Part shown: positions 54,310 through 63,055 of the stretch, piece by piece | Layout of the letters: every line of letters starts with the position of its first letter | Numbering within the stretch: the first letter of the stretch is position 1 | From: Streptosporangium amethystogenes | GTDB lineage: Bacteria > Actinomycetota > Actinomycetes > Streptosporangiales > Streptosporangiaceae | Reading direction: 5' to 3' | Length of the DNA stretch: 64,000 nt | Assembly: GCF_000721075.1 (NCBI RefSeq) | Contig: NZ_JOEQ01000004.1 | Span: forward strand, 248,001 to 312,000 | Notes under the pieces: generated by a model | What the model was told of the DNA's origin: nothing | Database searches by the model: none | Seen by the model: the letters and a program-made list of their open reading frames with translations, nothing else | Program-made: the position numbers and the translations under genes

Positions 54310-54402
54310 ATGTACAAGGAATTCGCCATCGAGGCCATCGTGTGGCTCATCCCCGTGGTGATTCTCGTCGGTCTCGCCTACATGATCACCCGACCCGCCT
54401 GA
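54310..54402 (+). CDS. Tiny single-pass membrane peptide
   Basis: 30 residues with a polar N-terminus (YKEFAIEA), one transmembrane segment (IVWLIPVVILVGLAYMI) and a TRPA tail. GGAGGG lies nine bases before this ATG; an in-frame ATG three codons earlier directly abuts the ribosome-binding site and is unlikely. Short membrane peptides of this kind often attach to larger transport or respiratory complexes. No family recognised. Confidence 0.55.
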   Translation: MYKEFAIEAIVWLIPVVILVGLAYMITRPA

Positions 54403-54644: not shown

Positions 54645-55247
54645 ATGGGCCAGTTCGTCGATGCCACGCTGTCCTTTCCGACCGTCCTGTTCACGTTCCT
54701 GCTCCTGGTGATCATCGCGTACTGGGTGCTCGTCGTGTTCGGCGTGTTCGGGTTCGACGGCGACGGCTCCGAAGCCTCAGGGGCCACCGGCTTCCTGAGC
54801 GGTCTGGGACTCGGCGGAGTCCCGGCCGCACTGGTCATCTCGCTGCTGGTCGTCGTCGCCTGGTTCGCGAGCCTGGTGGGCGGCACACTGTTCACCGGCA
54901 CCCCCGCCCTGATCGCGGTACTGGTCGCGGCACTGGTCTGCGCCTGGGCGTGCACGCGCCTCATCGTGCTGCCGCTGCGACGCCTCATCCCGAAGGAGCG
55001 CGTTCCCTCCCGCGCCGACTTCGTGGGCCGTGCGTGCGTTATCCGTACAAGCCGGGTCGGCGGTGACTTCGGCCAGGCCGAGGTCACCGCCGCGGACGGC
55101 TCCTCCGCTCTCGTTCAAGTGCGTCAGACCGGCGACGACGTCTTCGCCGCCGGAAGCACCGCCCTGATATTCGCCTATGACTCCCCCGGCGAGTTCTTCT
55201 GGGTGATGCCGTACGCCGCGGAACTCGACCCTGATCGTCCTATTTAA
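54645..55247 (+). CDS. YqiJ/NfeD-like membrane protein with OB-fold domain
   Basis: 200 residues. Transmembrane segments at about residues 11-33, 57-80 and 84-106 are followed by a small beta domain (about 115-195: SRADFVGRACVIRTSRVGG, GQAEVTAADGSSALVQVRQ, FAAGSTALIFAYD) of the NfeD/OB type. In many bacteria YqiJ/NfeD proteins are encoded next to flotillin-like SPFH proteins and anchor them in the membrane; that is exactly the arrangement here (14 bases to the flotillin gene). The ATG at 54645 starts at the first hydrophobic helix, but the best purine tract upstream is 14 bases away. Confidence 0.8.
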   Translation: MGQFVDATLSFPTVLFTFLLLVIIAYWVLVVFGVFGFDGDGSEASGATGFLSGLGLGGVPAALVISLLVVVAWFASLVGGTLFTGTPALIAVLVAALVCAWACTRLIVLPLRRLIPKERVPSRADFVGRACVIRTSRVGGDFGQAEVTAADGSSALVQVRQTGDDVFAAGSTALIFAYDSPGEFFWVMPYAAELDPDRPI

Positions 55248-55260
55248 CCGAGGGACCATT

Positions 55261-57369
55261 TTGGACGTCATCTCCACCGGACTCGGCATCTTCCTCGCCG
55301 TCGTCCTCCTCGTCGTCGTCGGCCTGCTCGTCATGATCAGCCGCCTGTTCAACAAGGTCGAACAGGGTAAGGCCCTGATCATCTCGAAGATCAACAAGGT
55401 GGACGTCACCTTCACCGGGGCCATCGTGCTGCCCATCTTCCACAAGTCGGAGCTGATGGACATCTCGGTGAAGACCATCGAGATCGCCCGGACCGGCCGT
55501 GAGGGCCTGATCTGCCGCGACAACATCCGGGCCGACATCCGCATCACCTTCTTCGTCCGGGTCAACAAGACCGTCGAGGATGTGGTGAAGGTCGCCCAGG
55601 CCATCGGCACCGCCCGCGCGAGCGACCAAGAAACGCTGCAGGAGCTGTTCAACGCCAAGTTCTCCGAGGCGCTCAAGACGGTCGGCAAGCAGCTCGACTT
55701 CGTGGACCTCTACACCCAGCGTGACCGGTTCCGCGACCAGATCATCCAGGTCATCGGCACCGACCTCAACGGCTACAGCCTTGAGGACGCAGCCATCGAC
55801 TACCTCGAGCAGACCTCGCTGATGTCCCTCGACCGCAACAACATCCTCGACGCGCAGGGCATCAGGAAGATCACCGAGCTGACCGCCATCGAGCACGTAC
55901 GAACCAACGAGTTCCAGCGTCGCGAGGAGAAGGAGATCACCCGCCAGAACGTGGACGCGCGGGAGGCCATCCTGGAGCTTGAGCGCCGCCAGGCCGACGC
56001 GGAGACCAAGCAGAAGCGCGAGGTCGAGACCATGCGTGCCCGCGAGGAGGCGGAGACCGCCAAGGTCCAGGCCGAGGAGCGGCTCAAGGCGCACGCCGCG
56101 AATCTCCGTACCGACGAGCAGCTCGGCATCCAGCAGGAGAACCAGGCTCGCGAGATCGCGGTGGCGGCGAAGAACCGCGAGCGGGTCCTCGCCATCGAGA
56201 CCGAGCGGATCGAGAAGGACCGCCTGCTGGAGGTCATCGCCCGCGAGCGCGAGACCGAGCTGTCGCGCATCTCCAAGGACAAGGAGCTGGAGGGCGAGAA
56301 GCGCTCCATCGCCGAGGTGATCCGCGAGCGGATCGTGGTGGAGAAGACCGTCGCCGAGCAGGAGGAGAGCATCAAGCGCCTGCGTGTGGTCGAGGAGGCC
56401 GAGCGGACCCGCCAGGCCGTGATCATCCAGGCCGAGGCCGAGGCGCAGGAGAGCCTGGTCAAGGACATCAAGGCGGCCGAGGCCTCGGAGGCGGCGTCCA
56501 AGCACCGGGCCCGCGAGGCGCTGGTGCTGGCCGAGTCCCGGCAGCAGGCCGCCGAGCTCGACGCCCGCGCCAAGATCCGTCTGGCCGAGGGCGTCCAGGC
56601 CGAGACCGCCGCTTTCGGCCTGGCCGAGGTGCAGGTGCGCGAGCGGGACGCCGCGGCGATCGAGAAGATCGGCCGCGCCGAGGCCGCCGTCGAGCGGGAG
56701 AAGGCGCTGGCGGTCGCCGAGGGCGAGCAGGCCAAGGCGCACGCCGTGGCCACCGCGGTACGCGAGAAGCTGAAGGCGGAGGCCGAGGGCGAGCAGGCCA
56801 TGGCGATGGCCGCCGCCGCGATGGTCGGCGAGAAGCTCAAGGCCGAGGCCGAGGGTCTCACCGAGAAGGCCGCGGCGATGGCCGCGCTCACCGACGCGAC
56901 CCGCGCCCACGAGGAGTACCGCCTGCGCCTGGAGGCCGAGAAGGAGATCCGCCTCGCCGGGGTGAACGTGCAGCTCAAGATCGCCGAGGCGCAGGCCTCC
57001 GTGGTCTCCGCCGGCCTGTCCAAGGCCAACATCGACATCGTCGGCGGCGACAGCGTGTTCTTCGACAGGCTGATGAGCTCGATCAGCATGGGCAAGGCGG
57101 TGGACGGCTTCGTGGCCCACTCCGACGTCGCCCGTACGCTGGCCGAGCCCTACCTGAACGGCTCGTCGAGCATCCCCGCCGACCTGGGCAGGGTCCTCGG
57201 CTCGATCGACACCGCCGACGTGCGGAACCTCTCACTGTCCGCGCTGCTGGTGAAACTGATCAAAGACGGCGGCCCCGACGCCGACCGGCTCCGCGGCCTG
57301 CTGAGCGAGGCCCAGGCCGCGGCCACCACCGAGGTCCCGGTCGCCGCGCTCAACTCCGCCGGCAAGTGA
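55261..57369 (+). CDS. Flotillin-like SPFH protein (YqiK type)
   Basis: 702 residues. An N-terminal membrane segment (about residues 5-28) is followed by an SPFH/band 7 domain (30-200: VEQGKALIISKINKVDVTFTG, EGLICRDNIRADIRITFFVRV). A long Glu/Ala/Arg-rich coiled coil covers 205-570, with EAEGxTEKAAAMAA-like repeats, and the C-terminal tail is about 600-702. TTG start with GAGGGA upstream. Flotillins oligomerise in the inner membrane and mark ordered microdomains. It lies 13 bases after the YqiJ-like gene and overlaps the giant ATPase gene (GTGA), so all three proteins should be made together. Confidence 0.93.
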   Translation: MDVISTGLGIFLAVVLLVVVGLLVMISRLFNKVEQGKALIISKINKVDVTFTGAIVLPIFHKSELMDISVKTIEIARTGREGLICRDNIRADIRITFFVRVNKTVEDVVKVAQAIGTARASDQETLQELFNAKFSEALKTVGKQLDFVDLYTQRDRFRDQIIQVIGTDLNGYSLEDAAIDYLEQTSLMSLDRNNILDAQGIRKITELTAIEHVRTNEFQRREEKEITRQNVDAREAILELERRQADAETKQKREVETMRAREEAETAKVQAEERLKAHAANLRTDEQLGIQQENQAREIAVAAKNRERVLAIETERIEKDRLLEVIARERETELSRISKDKELEGEKRSIAEVIRERIVVEKTVAEQEESIKRLRVVEEAERTRQAVIIQAEAEAQESLVKDIKAAEASEAASKHRAREALVLAESRQQAAELDARAKIRLAEGVQAETAAFGLAEVQVRERDAAAIEKIGRAEAAVEREKALAVAEGEQAKAHAVATAVREKLKAEAEGEQAMAMAAAAMVGEKLKAEAEGLTEKAAAMAALTDATRAHEEYRLRLEAEKEIRLAGVNVQLKIAEAQASVVSAGLSKANIDIVGGDSVFFDRLMSSISMGKAVDGFVAHSDVARTLAEPYLNGSSSIPADLGRVLGSIDTADVRNLSLSALLVKLIKDGGPDADRLRGLLSEAQAAATTEVPVAALNSAGK

Positions 57370-60300
57370 CGTCCTCCACGGCGGAGGCCGTCACCGACGC
57401 CCCCGGCGCGGAGGGGGCCGGGCTGGACGCGGGCACCTACGAGGTGCTCCGCGCCCGGCTGGCCGAACAGGCCGCCGAGCTGGCCGGGCGGTCCGACGCG
57501 CTCAACGCCGAACGCCTGGCGGTGTTCGGCGGAGCCGAGCTGCGCCTGATCGGCACCGAGCGGATACGCACCGAGAACAACTGCGTGCCGCGCGACATCG
57601 TCTCGGTCGGCGGGCTCATGCTCTTCGGCTACAACGTGTTCATCGGGCTGAAGCCGGAGACGTCCGTCTCGGACGTCTTCTCCATGCACACGTTCGTACG
57701 GGACACGGCGGACGCGTTCCGGTTCGACCCGGCGCCGATGTTCCGTGACCCGCGCTTCGAGCGGGACTTCGCCGAGCTCTACCGGTACTACCGGGAGACC
57801 CGGCTGCTCCAGCTCCGCCGGGTCGAGGGCAAGCTGCTGGCCGTCTTCCAGACCGGCCCGCAGGACACCCGGGTGCTGCGCTGGCAGGTCGGGGCGGACG
57901 GCACGCTCACCTACATCGACGACCGGGGGGAGCGCGACCACACGTTCCCGCCCTCGCACGACTTCGAGTGGACCCCCGCCACCCGTGACGACCACGTGCT
58001 CGGCCGCCATCCGCACATCTCGATCCAGGGCGAGGTGTTCGTCGAGACCGTCGGCGGCGACCTCACCATCAAGATCGAGAACAATACCGAGTCCGGTGAG
58101 GGCATCTACCGCGAGCCCGTCACCGAGCCGCTGCAGAGCCTCGCCGACGCGGAGGTCCAGCACGCCAGGATCGGCCCGCTGATCCTGCTCCGGATCCGGC
58201 CGTACAAGGAGCCCGAGTGGCGGCACCTGGTCTTCAACACCCGGACCAAGGGCGTGGTCCGCCTCGACGGCATCGGGCAGGCCTGCCAGCGCCTGCCCGA
58301 GGACCAGGGGATCATCTTCCCCGGCGGCTACTACCTGTCCACCGGGGTCAGCAAGACCTTCGACACCGACGTGTCCGAGCTGGAGTTCGAGCGGGTCATC
58401 CGCTCCCCCAACGGCGAGGACGTGCTGTACGTCTTCCACGCCCGCGCAGAGGGGCGCTCGCTGCTGCTGCCGTACAACGTGATCCGCAAGCAGGTGGCGA
58501 ATCCGCTCTCCTGCCACGGCTACTCGCTGTTCGACGACGGCACGCTGGTCGTCTTCAGGGCCACCTCCGACGAGCCCACCCGCGTCCACCCGATGCAGGT
58601 CTGGCAGACGGCGTACCAGTCGGACCTCTACGCCGCCGGCCGTCCGGTCGGCACCGGCCCGCTGGAGCGGATCGGCAACGCGGAGCTGGTCCGGGGCATC
58701 TCCGACTGCCTCTCGGTGGCCAGGATGGTCGACGAGATGGCGCCGTCGATACCGGTCTTCGAGGCGCTGATCGCCTCCTGCGTCCGGGTCTTCGACCATT
58801 ACCACTGGCTGGGCGAGCACGGGTTGCGCGGTCCGCTCGCCGACGTGCGGGCCACCGCCGAGCAGGTGCTGGACGAGTTCGAGAACGTCCAGTCGCTCAC
58901 CCGGCAGGCCGCCGAGGCGCTGGAGGCCGCCGCCACCGACATCACCGCACTGATACGACACGCGCGGAGCGAGGCGCCCAGGTCCGCCCAGGGTTGGGTG
59001 GACCGGCTCTCGCAGCTGCGCCAGTCGCAGGGTCACCTGGTGACCCTGCGCGAACTACGCCACGTCGACGTCGCCAGAATCGACGCGCTCGACGCGGAGC
59101 TGACGGCCGAGCTGGACAGCACCGCGCAGCGCGCGGCGGGCTTCCTGCGCGGCGACGACGCCTTCGCCGGCTACCACGCGGAGGTCGAGTCGCTGGTCTC
59201 CGAGGCGGGCGCCATCGCGACCGTGGCCGAGGCCGGGCCGATCGGCGAGCGGCTGGAGCGGCAGGCGCGGGGCCTGGAGATCGTGGTCGAGGTGGTCGGC
59301 ACGCTCGACATCGCCGACGCCACCGTGCGGACCGCCATCCTGGAACGGGTCGGCGAGGTGCTCGGCGGCGTCAACCGCGCCCGCGCCACGCTGGACGCCC
59401 GGCGCGGTGAGCTGCTGGCCGGTGAGGGCAGGGCCGCCTTCGCCGCCGAGTACGCCCTGCTGGGGCAGGCGATCACCGGGGCGCTGGCGATGTCCGACAC
59501 CCCCGAACGCTGCGACGAGCAGCTGGGCCGGCTGATGCTCCAGCTGGAGAACCTGGAGTCGCGCTTCGCCGAGTTCGACGACTTCCTGGGGCAGCTGTCC
59601 TCGAAGCGGGAGGACGTCTATGAGGCGTTCTCCTCGCGCCGCCAGGCGCTGCTCGACGAACGGGCCCGCCGTGCCGACCGGCTGGCCGACTCCGCCACCC
59701 GGATCCTGTCGAGCGTACGACGCCGCCTGGCCGCTCTGAAGTCGCTGGACGAGGTCAACACCTACTTCGGGTCCGACCCGATGGTGCTCAAGCTCAAGGG
59801 CGTGGCCGGGGAACTGCGCGCGCTGGGTGACCAGGTCCGTGCCGAGGAGCTCGAAGGCCGGGTCAAGTCCGCCCGCCAGGAGGCGGGCCGCGCCCTGCGC
59901 GACCGGCTCGACCTCTACACCGACGGTGGCGAGACCATCCGGCTCGGCCGCCACCTGTTCGCGGTCAACACCCAGCCGGCCGACCTGACCCTGGTCCCGC
60001 ACGAAGGCCGGATGGCGTTCGCCGTCACCGGGACCGACTACCGCTCCCCGGTGCTTGACGCGGCCTTCGAGGAGACCCGGCCGTTCTGGAACCAGCTGAC
60101 GGTCTCGGAGTCGCCGGAGGTCTACCGGGGCGAGCACCTGGCCGCCGCCATCCTGGCCGCCGCCGAGTCCGGCACCCTGACGCTGGGCGAGCGACAGGTC
60201 TCCCTGGACGCGCTGCACGAGGCGGCGGTGGCCGACGGGGAACTGCTGGAGATCGTCCGCCGGGTGGCGGAGACCCGCTACGACGAGGGCTACGAGCGGG

Positions 60301-62438
60301 GTGTCCACGACCACGACGCCACCGCGATCCTGCGGGCGGCGCTCCGCCTGCACGCGGGCGCGGGCCTGCTCCGCTACCCGCCGGCGGCGCGGGCCGCCGC
60401 CCAGCTCTTCTGGACCTACGGCACCGACGAGGCCACCCGCGCGACCTGGACCGTCCGGGCCACCTCGCTGGCCCGGGCCCGGACCCTGTTCGGCCAGGTG
60501 GAAGCGGTACAGGAGACTCGTGCCGCCCTCGGCTCCGCGATCGCGTCCTTCAGCCGGGGTCTCCACGACCGGCCGGAGGGTCCGGCGGGCGCGCTCGCCG
60601 TAGCCGCCGCGAGCACGTCCGGGGCGCCCCGGCCGGCCGGGACCCGCGCGCGGGGAGACGAGGGCGTCTTCGAACTGGCCGGGGAGTATCTCTTCGAGGA
60701 GCTGGTCGGCAAGCCGTTCGGGTTCGTGACGAGCGCGGGGGCACGGGCGCTGCTCGACCGGTTCGACCGGGCGATCGGCCCCGCGCGCCAGGAGTTCGAG
60801 GACGACCTGCGAGCGTTCGGCGACGACCTCTCCGGGCGTCACCGCCTGGCCGAGGCGTGGCTGTCCGCCTTCGACCTCTCGACGCCGGACTCGGGGCCGG
60901 ACTTTGGGCCGGACTCTGGGCCGGGCTCGGCATCGGCCCCCGGATCGGCCGAACTGGTGGAGGCGGTCGCCGTACTGCTCTGCGAGGTGGCGCGACACGA
61001 CTCGGCCGCGGCGCTGACCGCCACGGTCGAGGGGCTGCTCGGCGCGCACCCCCGGATCTCCGGGCGCGCGATCCGGCTGCGGCTGGACGAGTTCCTGGCC
61101 AGGACCCGGCACTTCCGCGACCACCGCGTCCCCGCGTACCGCGCCTACCAGAAGCGGCGCAACGAGCTGGTCGCGGCCGAGCGGGCGCGGCTGCGTCTTG
61201 AGGAGTTCCAGCCGAAGGTGATGACCGCCTTCGTCCGCAACCAGCTGCTCGACGAGGTCTACCTGCCGCTGATCGGCGACAACCTGGCCAAACAGCTCGG
61301 CGCGGCCGGGGACGCCAAGCGGACCGACCAGATGGGCATGCTGCTGCTCATCTCCCCGCCCGGCTACGGCAAGACCACCCTGATGGAGTATGTGGCCAAC
61401 CGGCTGGGGATGATCTTCGTCAAGGTCAACGGCCCTGCCCTGGGCCACCTGGTGACCTCGGTGGACCCGGCGCAGGCGCCCGACGCGACGGCACGGCAGG
61501 AGATCGAGAAGATCTCCTTCGCGCTGGAGATGGGCAACAACGTGCTGCTCTACCTGGACGACATCCAGCACACCTCCCCGGAGCTGCTGCAGAAGTTCAT
61601 CTCGCTCTGCGACGGCCAGCGCCGGATGGAGGGCGTCTGGGAGGGCCGGACCCGCACCTACGACCTGCGCGGCAAGCGCTTCGCGGTCTGCATGGCGGGC
61701 AACCCGTACACCGAGTCGGGCAAGCGCTTCCGCATCCCCGACATGCTCGCCAACCGCGCCGACGTGTGGAACCTCGGTGACGTGCTGTCCGGCCGGGACG
61801 AGCTGTTCGCGCTGAGCTACATCGACAACGCGCTGACCTCCAACCCGGTGCTGTCCCCGCTCTCCACCCGCGACCGCGACGACATCCGCCTGCTGGTACG
61901 GCTGGCGCGGGGCGACTCGGGGGTCCGGGCCGACCAGCTCTCCCACCCGTACTCCTCGGTGGAGCTGGAACAGGTCCTCGCGGTGCTCCGCAAGCTGCTC
62001 CGGATCCAGAAGGTGGTGCTGGCCAACAACCAGGCGTACATCGCCTCGGCCGCCCAGTCGGACGCCTCGCGGACCGAGCCCCCCTACCAGCTCCAGGGCT
62101 CGTACCGGAACATGAACAAGCTCGCGGCCCGGGTCGTCCCGGTGATGAACGACGCCGAACTGGAGGCGGTGATCGACGATCACTACCTCGGCGAGGCCCA
62201 GACCCTCACCTCGGGGGCGGAGGCCAACCTGCTCAAACTCGCCGAGCTACGCGGCACCCTGACCGCCGAGCAGGCCGCCCGATGGGCCGAGGTGAAGACC
62301 GCCTACCTGCGCTCCCAGGCCCTCGGCGGCGCCGAGGACGACCCGATGACCCGCGCGGTCGGCGCGGTCGGCCTGCTGGCCGACCGGGTGAGCACCGCCA
62401 TCGAACACGCCGCCGACCGGATCTCCGCCGAACCGTGA
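57366..62438 (+). CDS. Giant AAA+ ATPase of the DUF3686 / 'DNA repair ATPase' type
   Basis: 1690 residues. Residues 1 to about 490 are a beta-rich domain (FGGAELRLIGTERIRTENN, DIVSVGGLMLFGYNVFIGLK, FIFPGGYYLSTG-like) of the DUF3686 type. Residues about 500-880 are helical and coiled-coil. Then mixed domains lead to a low-complexity linker of PDSG/PDFG units near 1174-1190. The C-terminal AAA+ core has Walker A PPGYGKTT (1331-1338, Lys1336), Walker B YLDDIQ (1396-1401), sensor-1 AGNPYTESG (Asn1446) and RFRIPDMLANRADVW. The GTG start overlaps the flotillin stop. The annotation 'DNA repair' is historical; coupling to membrane proteins suggests envelope remodelling or stress response (inference). 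Confidence 0.88.
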   Translation: MTSSTAEAVTDAPGAEGAGLDAGTYEVLRARLAEQAAELAGRSDALNAERLAVFGGAELRLIGTERIRTENNCVPRDIVSVGGLMLFGYNVFIGLKPETSVSDVFSMHTFVRDTADAFRFDPAPMFRDPRFERDFAELYRYYRETRLLQLRRVEGKLLAVFQTGPQDTRVLRWQVGADGTLTYIDDRGERDHTFPPSHDFEWTPATRDDHVLGRHPHISIQGEVFVETVGGDLTIKIENNTESGEGIYREPVTEPLQSLADAEVQHARIGPLILLRIRPYKEPEWRHLVFNTRTKGVVRLDGIGQACQRLPEDQGIIFPGGYYLSTGVSKTFDTDVSELEFERVIRSPNGEDVLYVFHARAEGRSLLLPYNVIRKQVANPLSCHGYSLFDDGTLVVFRATSDEPTRVHPMQVWQTAYQSDLYAAGRPVGTGPLERIGNAELVRGISDCLSVARMVDEMAPSIPVFEALIASCVRVFDHYHWLGEHGLRGPLADVRATAEQVLDEFENVQSLTRQAAEALEAAATDITALIRHARSEAPRSAQGWVDRLSQLRQSQGHLVTLRELRHVDVARIDALDAELTAELDSTAQRAAGFLRGDDAFAGYHAEVESLVSEAGAIATVAEAGPIGERLERQARGLEIVVEVVGTLDIADATVRTAILERVGEVLGGVNRARATLDARRGELLAGEGRAAFAAEYALLGQAITGALAMSDTPERCDEQLGRLMLQLENLESRFAEFDDFLGQLSSKREDVYEAFSSRRQALLDERARRADRLADSATRILSSVRRRLAALKSLDEVNTYFGSDPMVLKLKGVAGELRALGDQVRAEELEGRVKSARQEAGRALRDRLDLYTDGGETIRLGRHLFAVNTQPADLTLVPHEGRMAFAVTGTDYRSPVLDAAFEETRPFWNQLTVSESPEVYRGEHLAAAILAAAESGTLTLGERQVSLDALHEAAVADGELLEIVRRVAETRYDEGYERGVHDHDATAILRAALRLHAGAGLLRYPPAARAAAQLFWTYGTDEATRATWTVRATSLARARTLFGQVEAVQETRAALGSAIASFSRGLHDRPEGPAGALAVAAASTSGAPRPAGTRARGDEGVFELAGEYLFEELVGKPFGFVTSAGARALLDRFDRAIGPARQEFEDDLRAFGDDLSGRHRLAEAWLSAFDLSTPDSGPDFGPDSGPGSASAPGSAELVEAVAVLLCEVARHDSAAALTATVEGLLGAHPRISGRAIRLRLDEFLARTRHFRDHRVPAYRAYQKRRNELVAAERARLRLEEFQPKVMTAFVRNQLLDEVYLPLIGDNLAKQLGAAGDAKRTDQMGMLLLISPPGYGKTTLMEYVANRLGMIFVKVNGPALGHLVTSVDPAQAPDATARQEIEKISFALEMGNNVLLYLDDIQHTSPELLQKFISLCDGQRRMEGVWEGRTRTYDLRGKRFAVCMAGNPYTESGKRFRIPDMLANRADVWNLGDVLSGRDELFALSYIDNALTSNPVLSPLSTRDRDDIRLLVRLARGDSGVRADQLSHPYSSVELEQVLAVLRKLLRIQKVVLANNQAYIASAAQSDASRTEPPYQLQGSYRNMNKLAARVVPVMNDAELEAVIDDHYLGEAQTLTSGAEANLLKLAELRGTLTAEQAARWAEVKTAYLRSQALGGAEDDPMTRAVGAVGLLADRVSTAIEHAADRISAEP

Positions 62439-62620
62439 AGCCCGGTCACGGCGGCCAAGGCAGGCAAGGAACGCTCCGGTGGCCCTTGCCCGCCCGGCCC
62501 CGTGACCGGCACCCGGCCGAGTGCGCCCCGCTGACCACCGACATCCGCCACCACCTGCGGCAGGTCTTTGGCAGCGACGTCCCCGACTACGAGGTCGACG
62601 TCACGCTGTCGCCCAGTTGA
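62435..62620 (+). CDS. Possible 61-residue protein coupled to the giant ATPase
   Basis: An open frame starting at a GTG that overlaps the ATPase stop (GTGA), as for the other genes of this operon. The first half is basic and Gly/Pro-rich and looks poorly conserved. The second half (LTTDIRHHLRQVFGSD, then YEVDVTLSP) looks more protein-like. No family recognised and it could be untranslated. Confidence 0.35.
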   Translation: MKPGHGGQGRQGTLRWPLPARPRDRHPAECAPLTTDIRHHLRQVFGSDVPDYEVDVTLSPS

Positions 62621-62674: not shown

Positions 62675-63055
62675 ATGACTACCGAACCAAAAGTACGGGT
62701 GCGCCGGGTCTACGAGGAGCCGGAGGCCTCCGACGGCGCCCGGGTGCTGGTCGACCGGATCTGGCCGCGCGGACTGTCCAAGGAGAAGGCGCATCTGGAC
62801 GAGTGGTGCAAGGCCGTGGCGCCCTCGACCGAGCTTCGTACGTGGTACGGCCACGATCCGGCCCGGTTTGAGGAGTTCGGCCGCCGCTACCGGGCCGAGC
62901 TGGAGGACCCTGAGCGGGCCACCGCGCTGGAGCACCTGCGCGAGCTGGCGAAGAAGCGACCGTTGACGCTCCTGACCGCGAGCAGGCAGGCCGACATCAG
63001 CGAGGCCGTGATCCTCGCCGACCTGCTACGGAGCCGAGGGCCGCGCCCCATGTGA
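62675..63055 (+). CDS. DUF488 family protein
   Basis: 126 residues. Family pattern is clear: VRRVYEEPEASDGARVLVDRIWPRGLSKE, LDEWCKAVAPSTELRTWYGH, FGRRYRAELEDP and TLLTASRQADISEAVILADLL. Length is normal. Members are small cytoplasmic proteins of unknown biochemical role. ATG start; ribosome-binding site weak. It converges with the XRE-cupin gene. Confidence 0.9.
   Translation: MTTEPKVRVRRVYEEPEASDGARVLVDRIWPRGLSKEKAHLDEWCKAVAPSTELRTWYGHDPARFEEFGRRYRAELEDPERATALEHLRELAKKRPLTLLTASRQADISEAVILADLLRSRGPRPM

Follow-up and report, generated by a model that had tools for sequence, protein, structure and literature searches.

A flotillin paired with a large AAA+ ATPase in Streptosporangium amethystogenes: a strictly conserved gene pair with a candidate remodelling role at the membrane

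A window of 64,000 nucleotides from the soil bacterium Streptosporangium amethystogenes (assembly GCF_000721075.1, contig NZ_JOEQ01000004.1, here contig C4; C4:248001-312000) was analysed, and it holds an operon encoding a YqiJ-like membrane protein, a flotillin-type SPFH protein and a giant ATPase, present as a single copy in the 9.4-Mb assembly. We found that the ATPase and the flotillin form a real, strictly conserved pair, a conclusion that is well supported. On balance, we lean slightly towards the reading that the operon equips a flotillin scaffold at the membrane with a MoxR-type ATPase of its own, which remodels proteins without proteolysis, as an accessory envelope-stress function. 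A wider proposal is put forward tentatively, at rather less than even probability: a flotillin subfamily would never occur without a MoxR-type AAA+ machine of its own, as an ATP-powered scaffold remodelling clients held by flotillin and NfeD, with a patchy spread across Actinomycetota, Deinococcota, Pseudomonadota, Myxococcus and Bacteroidota. The three genes are as follows.

54645..55247, plus strand: YqiJ/NfeD2-like membrane protein of 200 residues (open reading frame, ATG start)
55261..57369, plus strand: SPFH/flotillin protein of 702 residues (open reading frame, TTG start, TGA stop)
57366..62438, plus strand: giant ATPase of 1690 residues (open reading frame, GTG start, TGA stop)

The initial annotation had described this gene order with a 13-base gap and a GTGA overlap, and the reading frame coordinates bore it out. 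The YqiJ-like and flotillin genes are 13 bases apart, and since the ATPase start GTG at 57366 lies within the flotillin stop TGA at 57369, both codons share GTGA, a 4-base overlap. Tight spacing as a general rule was considered and rejected: of the 84 loci listed, 13 have a start that would allow the same 4-base overlap, and in many Streptomyces copies the gap runs to about 70-100 bases or more.

Among 394 Actinomycetes genomes (the window's own included), 60 carried both the ATPase and the flotillin and 334 carried neither. The flotillin profile matched 68 of these genomes; the 60 strong ones were the ATPase genomes, and the other eight matched at E 1.1e-8 or weaker. All 62 ATPase copies adjoined a strong upstream flotillin on the same strand, with 81-1361 bases between the matched domains, and all 62 strong flotillins were paired with an ATPase; this count used 62 of 67 ATPase rows and 62 flotillin rows, secondary pieces of one protein and weak matches having been dropped beforehand. 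Fisher's P for the pairing was 2e-72, which overstates it because the relatives are not independent. The same was seen in a phylum sample of 396 genomes that overlaps with the first: nine carried both PF12458 and a strong flotillin (best E 1.7e-161 or better) and 387 neither, with weak matches of the flotillin profile A2 in four other genomes (E 1e-8 to 2e-4). One genome of the window's own genus (G681) lacks both genes, and the pair is therefore an accessory unit. The initial annotation would have been refuted by ATPase genomes that usually lack the flotillin and YqiJ-like genes; no ATPase genome without a flotillin was found in the samples searched.

In plasmid records, the 12 with an ATPase took the top 12 places among 309 flotillin records (40 listed), at E<=6e-52; none of the 28 others listed did better than 1e-26, and the coordinates showed the two genes adjoining in all 12. 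These records come from Nonomuraea, Streptomyces, Deinococcus, Pseudomonas (pQBR103), Proteus, Hymenobacter, Vibrio, Photobacterium and Halomonas, and three of them (11.9 and about 4.1 Mb) look like whole chromosomes. The flotillin was also present in 78 of 80 genome loci, the other two being cut at a contig end; these loci are the best 80 of at least 549 confirmed relatives, so the set leans to close kin, and four of them (L050, L071, L073, L088) have titles that are non-actinobacterial or name no phylum. Distances of ATPase and flotillin co-varied over 83 loci (r 0.93; none of 2000 shuffles as high), for which shared ancestry alone could suffice. The patchy spread and the presence on megaplasmids would suit an anti-phage or other conflict system. 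PADLOC returned only weak AAA+ matches to IetA (E 0.001), and among viral contigs 74 stretches matched the search pattern and none encodes a relative, which makes such a system extremely unlikely here.

The flotillin has one N-terminal hydrophobic segment (residues 8-26), followed by an SPFH domain and a long coiled coil, and thus shows the arrangement of the SPFH superfamily, in which the SPFH domain stands behind an N-terminal membrane segment. Its SPFH part shares 31% identity with E. coli YqiK across 192 residues (residues 12-200 align; E 1e-30). Against the PDB, the single sequence gave no match and the profile gave weak matches only, among them Flotillin-2 (E 0.05) in the coiled coil. 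The Pfam models YqiJ_N, YqiJ_OB, Band_7 and Flot are matched by the E. coli proteins, and the window proteins fall below the cut-off; of two other ATPase-linked flotillins tried, the one of pQBR103 matches Band_7 (9e-11) and that of Hymenobacter matches nothing in Pfam. In a full-length tree of 23 rows, 17 ATPase-linked flotillins were split from six without ATPase with 100/100 support, and the same split at 100/100 was obtained on the SPFH part with 16 rows; the program warned of long branches in both trees, and the flotillins without ATPase were five picked from the 309 plasmid matches together with E. coli YqiK. The ATPase-linked flotillins are therefore a subfamily apart from YqiK, in the sample used. 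Its separate clade and its miss of the Pfam models that fit the E. coli proteins do not agree with the earlier equation of this flotillin with YqiK of the E. coli pair. The gene order, the SPFH similarity and the membrane segments are shared with YqiJ-YqiK, whereas the E. coli pair has no adjoining ATPase and its flotillin belongs to the other clade.

YqiK-type flotillins also occur in many E. coli plasmid records: the plasmid matches included 229 Escherichia records, some chromosome-sized, and in one E. coli plasmid record (L110, 2785-5126) a YqiJ and YqiK-type flotillin pair lies between replication and pilus genes. Three further loci (L107, L108, L109) carry PspA, a YqiJ-like protein and a YqiK-type flotillin in a row with no ATPase.

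The YqiJ-like protein has three to four hydrophobic segments (14-32, 47-65, 67-85 and 90-108, by hydropathy), after which come a basic stretch and then a C-terminal region alignable with the OB part of YqiJ; a comparison of its profile (A3) with E. coli YqiJ gave 89% probability (E 2.1e-6, 154 columns). It had no Pfam match above the cut-off and, as a single sequence, no PDB match, the OB part being assigned by alignment only; the profile gave weak PDB matches only, with no clear relative. This gene had been taken to be as constant as the other two, which did not hold: its profile matched 64 of the 80 genome loci, and of the 16 without a match six are cut at a contig end and ten, all Streptomyces by title, have room for the gene. 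In the Streptomyces locus L002 the YqiJ-like protein is reduced to 144 residues with most of the OB part gone, and at the Streptomyces locus L009 none was found. Given that YqiJ was not found in some loci, the flotillin-ATPase pair is the core of the system.

The ATPase comprises the following parts.

57477..58805, plus strand: DUF3686 (PF12458), beta-propeller-like, ATPase residues 38-480
59157..59408, plus strand: DUF7902, ATPase residues 598-681, within a helical region of about 490-850 (Pfam, model helices)
60300..60320, plus strand: G-V-H-D-H-D-A motif, ATPase residues 979-985
61218..62258, plus strand: AAA+ module, MoxR-like by its closest modelled fold, ATPase residues about 1285-1631

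Pfam matched DUF3686 at E 8.4e-218 (723.7 bits against a cut-off of 25), DUF7902 at E 3e-30 and AAA at about residues 1326-1451, and no protease domain was found by it; hydropathy gave no hydrophobic segment. At least 7996 homologues exist at E<=0.001, and the nearest listed ones (P0002-P0024) are all from Streptosporangium, with 86-99% identity over residues 1200-1690. In an alignment of 87 rows (the window and 86 loci), Walker A (GYGKT), Walker B, the sensor-1 Asn1446, Arg1464 and Arg1581 were identical in every row; Walker B is DD instead of the usual DE in all 87. Outside the AAA+ module, G979, H981, D982 and D984 of a G-x-H-D-x-D motif, which could be a metal site, were likewise constant in 87/87. 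The loci had been searched with two peptide patterns, so conservation at those positions is partly built in: they were partly retrieved with the G-V-H-D-H-D-A pattern itself, and the 14 sequences of the ATPase profile A1 were not.

The ATPase was modelled as a beta-propeller and long helices with a single AAA+ module; in a second alignment, the structures matching this module best were those of the MoxR-class proteins CbbQ and NorQ. By this closest fold the module would belong to the MoxR class, of which a helix-2 insert is a mark (PMC9976466; this and the other papers cited by PMC number are drawn on in excerpt). MoxR ATPases together with VWA proteins are described in target remodelling and metal insertion (PMC9976466, PMC13036017, PMC10585395), and fumarate reductase is a target of RavA-ViaA (PMC13036017, PMC10585395). 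What is shared with the MoxR proteins (CbbQ, NorQ, RavA) is the AAA+ fold, that of CbbQ and NorQ; the differences are that their partner is a VWA protein and that NorQ is a single AAA+ module without a propeller (PMC9976466).

Pfam and NCBI name this family after DNA repair, and a DNA repair or nucleoid ATPase would agree with a weak P-loop sequence similarity to RuvB, with the high place of RuvB in the Foldseek list and with a LexA-family regulator that lies divergent from the Hymenobacter operon (L006 610-1395, minus strand). The constant membrane-protein partner and the MoxR-like fold speak against it, with no RuvB in the 50 rows of the second alignment (absence of a fold from the VIA lists does not count as evidence against other folds). 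No DNA-binding domain was found by Pfam, and in six annotated loci, where many products are 'hypothetical', no gene besides the ATPase is annotated for repair. We consider this role highly unlikely; there is little behind the label, which the initial annotation had rightly called a poor fit.

The job of such an operon had been thought undescribed. A 2024 phage-shock-protein survey (PMC11237479) already contains the flotillin/YqiJ-like/AAA+ gene set, with PspA in its full form, predicts a chaperone-like role in assembling membrane-linked complexes, and describes an 'abbreviated' form without PspA as more widely distributed. Its operons have the same flotillin with transmembrane segment, band-7 domain and coiled coil and the same YqiJ-like transmembrane protein, and the combination that marks them (flotillin, YqiJ-like transmembrane protein and propeller-AAA+ ATPase together) is present in the window. 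The excerpts give the ATPase 'in some cases', whereas in our searches one flotillin clade was accompanied by it throughout; the MoxR affinity was not found in the excerpts. As far as our literature searches go, the reciprocity, the separate flotillin clade, the MoxR affinity and the dispensability of YqiJ are new.

PspA was present in all nine ATPase genomes of the 396, with two copies in the window's genome that sit away from the operon (C4:407295 and C6:213892); the window operon is therefore the abbreviated form and lacks the full CesT/Tir-PspA arrangement. The Hymenobacter locus (L006) has a Tir chaperone, PspA, DUF1449 (YqiJ), flotillin and ATPase in a row, as arranged in the survey, and upstream of the operon of pQBR103 (L004) are PspA, DUF2491, DUF350, DUF1190 and a glutathionylspermidine-synthase-like gene, which resemble another group of the survey (PMC11237479). 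In the other loci of 101 sources the PspA profile found none at E 0.01, but the PspA of L004, which is cut, escapes this profile as well. These full operons, in which CesT/Tir-PspA joins the triad, and the nine genomes would fit PspA/ESCRT-III-type remodelling, in which the ATPase acts on PspA polymers like Vps4 on Snf7 and the flotillin only positions the ATPase. As the main partner PspA is weakened, and we regard this mechanism as unlikely.

Two precedents bear on how a flotillin scaffold with its own remodelling ATPase may work. In Staphylococcus aureus, FloA and NfeD clamp and stabilise unfolded proteins without ATP (PMC11222466); flotillin and an OB-fold partner, there described as cytosolic, are shared with the present operon, and the stabilisation of clients without ATP is the difference, which leaves an energy step open. 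The SPFH proteins HflK/C are found in complex with the AAA+ protease FtsH (PMC13220708), a likeness in that SPFH proteins join an AAA+ machine. FtsH differs as a membrane-bound protease from the ATPase described here, with its lack of a hydrophobic segment and of a detected protease domain. Taken together with the MoxR precedent, we think by analogy that the ATPase may supply the energy for remodelling flotillin-held clients. By the positive-inside rule, the basic residues behind the flotillin segment and behind the last segment of YqiJ would put the SPFH and OB parts in the cytoplasm, on the same side as the ATPase, so that all soluble parts would lie there.

In the proposed mechanism, the SPFH proteins would form a ring or cage, the flotillin scaffold, on the cytoplasmic face of the membrane, which the YqiJ/NfeD-type partner would stabilise where present. 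The ATPase would probably assemble into a hexameric ring by way of the AAA+ module at its C-terminus, its beta-propeller and long helical arms reaching the flotillin scaffold or the clients, and ATP would be used to remodel, extract or help assemble scaffold-held proteins without proteolysis. The operon would thereby serve an accessory envelope-stress function; the physical contact, the oligomeric state, the client, the direction of action and the link to stress are what we infer.

Several observations weigh against this reading. Walker B is without its usual glutamate, so ATP hydrolysis is assumed. In Foldseek's own order dynein and RuvB rank higher than NorQ, with weak scores throughout, and the nearest solved AAA+ modules by sequence are those of Cdc48/p97, Rix7, Rpt3 and RuvB; as both point elsewhere, it is the second alignment that carries the assignment to MoxR. 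The propeller TM-scores are low (0.28 or less). VWA, the usual MoxR partner, was not found by Pfam in the three operon proteins, the rest of the genome not having been searched. YqiK-type flotillins, some beside PspA, occur without the ATPase, YqiJ was not found in the ten Streptomyces loci with space for it, and the 62 ATPases include one that is split in two (G128, a frame of 622 residues). The reciprocity comes mainly from Actinomycetota genomes, which are not independent, and at most two flotillin candidates were scored per genome. No experiment on the operon or the ATPase was found in the open literature, subscription papers and preprints lying outside the search.

The neighbour clusters listed were mostly antisense artefacts; a divergent PucR-type regulator stood out, as did TrkA_N and exchanger genes in Streptomyces. 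A TrkA_N-type protein lies near the operon in 12 loci (L002, L028, L031, L041, L047, L051, L053, L059, L060, L062, L075 and L080), and in the 101 sources a Na/H exchanger occurs in five loci and NhaA in six (one Nocardia), mostly in Streptomyces. This recurrence of cation transport genes, together with CbbQ and NorQ as the best folds, might indicate that the ATPase, working like NorQD or RavA-ViaA and using the flotillin as a local platform, inserts a cofactor into a respiratory or transport complex of the membrane, or assembles it. The transport neighbours vary by group and may reflect shared synteny, and no single enzyme is a constant neighbour; we judge this role improbable.

Other features near the operon were also recorded. 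In Streptomyces loci L072 (6200-7372, minus strand) and L085 (6304-7512, minus strand), a PucR-type regulator (GGDEF_2 and HTH_30) lies divergently upstream, and minus-strand upstream frames of 21 loci including L055, which form one cluster, may be the same gene; it is a candidate for control of the operon. In Vibrio campbellii (L007, 10834-12612), the genes directly after the ATPase encode a PLD-like protein and TelA, a toxic-anion-resistance protein, which may be a link to Ter-type stress systems; PLD in some Proteobacteria is mentioned by the survey (PMC11237479). A 30-codon frame (54310-54402) behind GGAGGG upstream of the window's operon encodes a peptide with a single transmembrane segment, and its only match in the fetched loci was in the window's own genome. 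A scan for sigma-70 promoters and terminators, other promoter types being outside it, found none at either operon end, and tRNA and Rfam scans of the window were empty.

A further 61-codon frame past the ATPase (GTG at 62435 to 62620) had been pointed out, and we drop the reading of it as a gene. It had no Pfam match and no match in 15 congeneric genomes, the window's own being the only one of 16 to match (at least one of the other 15, G681, lacks the ATPase too); in the fetched loci, the matches listed were at chance level and off the ATPase stop (best E 3e-4). The frame 62435-62620 is probably not a gene. The next gene downstream, which was not found in the other sources searched, is as follows.

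62675-63055: DUF488 protein of the 'inactive N3' subclade (Pfam)

For the most part, bacterial flotillins are regarded as scaffolds; in one case that was studied they are described as holding unfolded proteins without the use of ATP (PMC11222466). A clade that always came with a large MoxR-type ATPase in the searches made here suggests that a remodelling engine belongs to some flotillins. The pairing speaks against calling the protein a 'DNA repair ATPase', as many of the 120 listed homologues are named, and the ATPase-flotillin pair offers a clean two-gene system for asking what flotillin scaffolds do.

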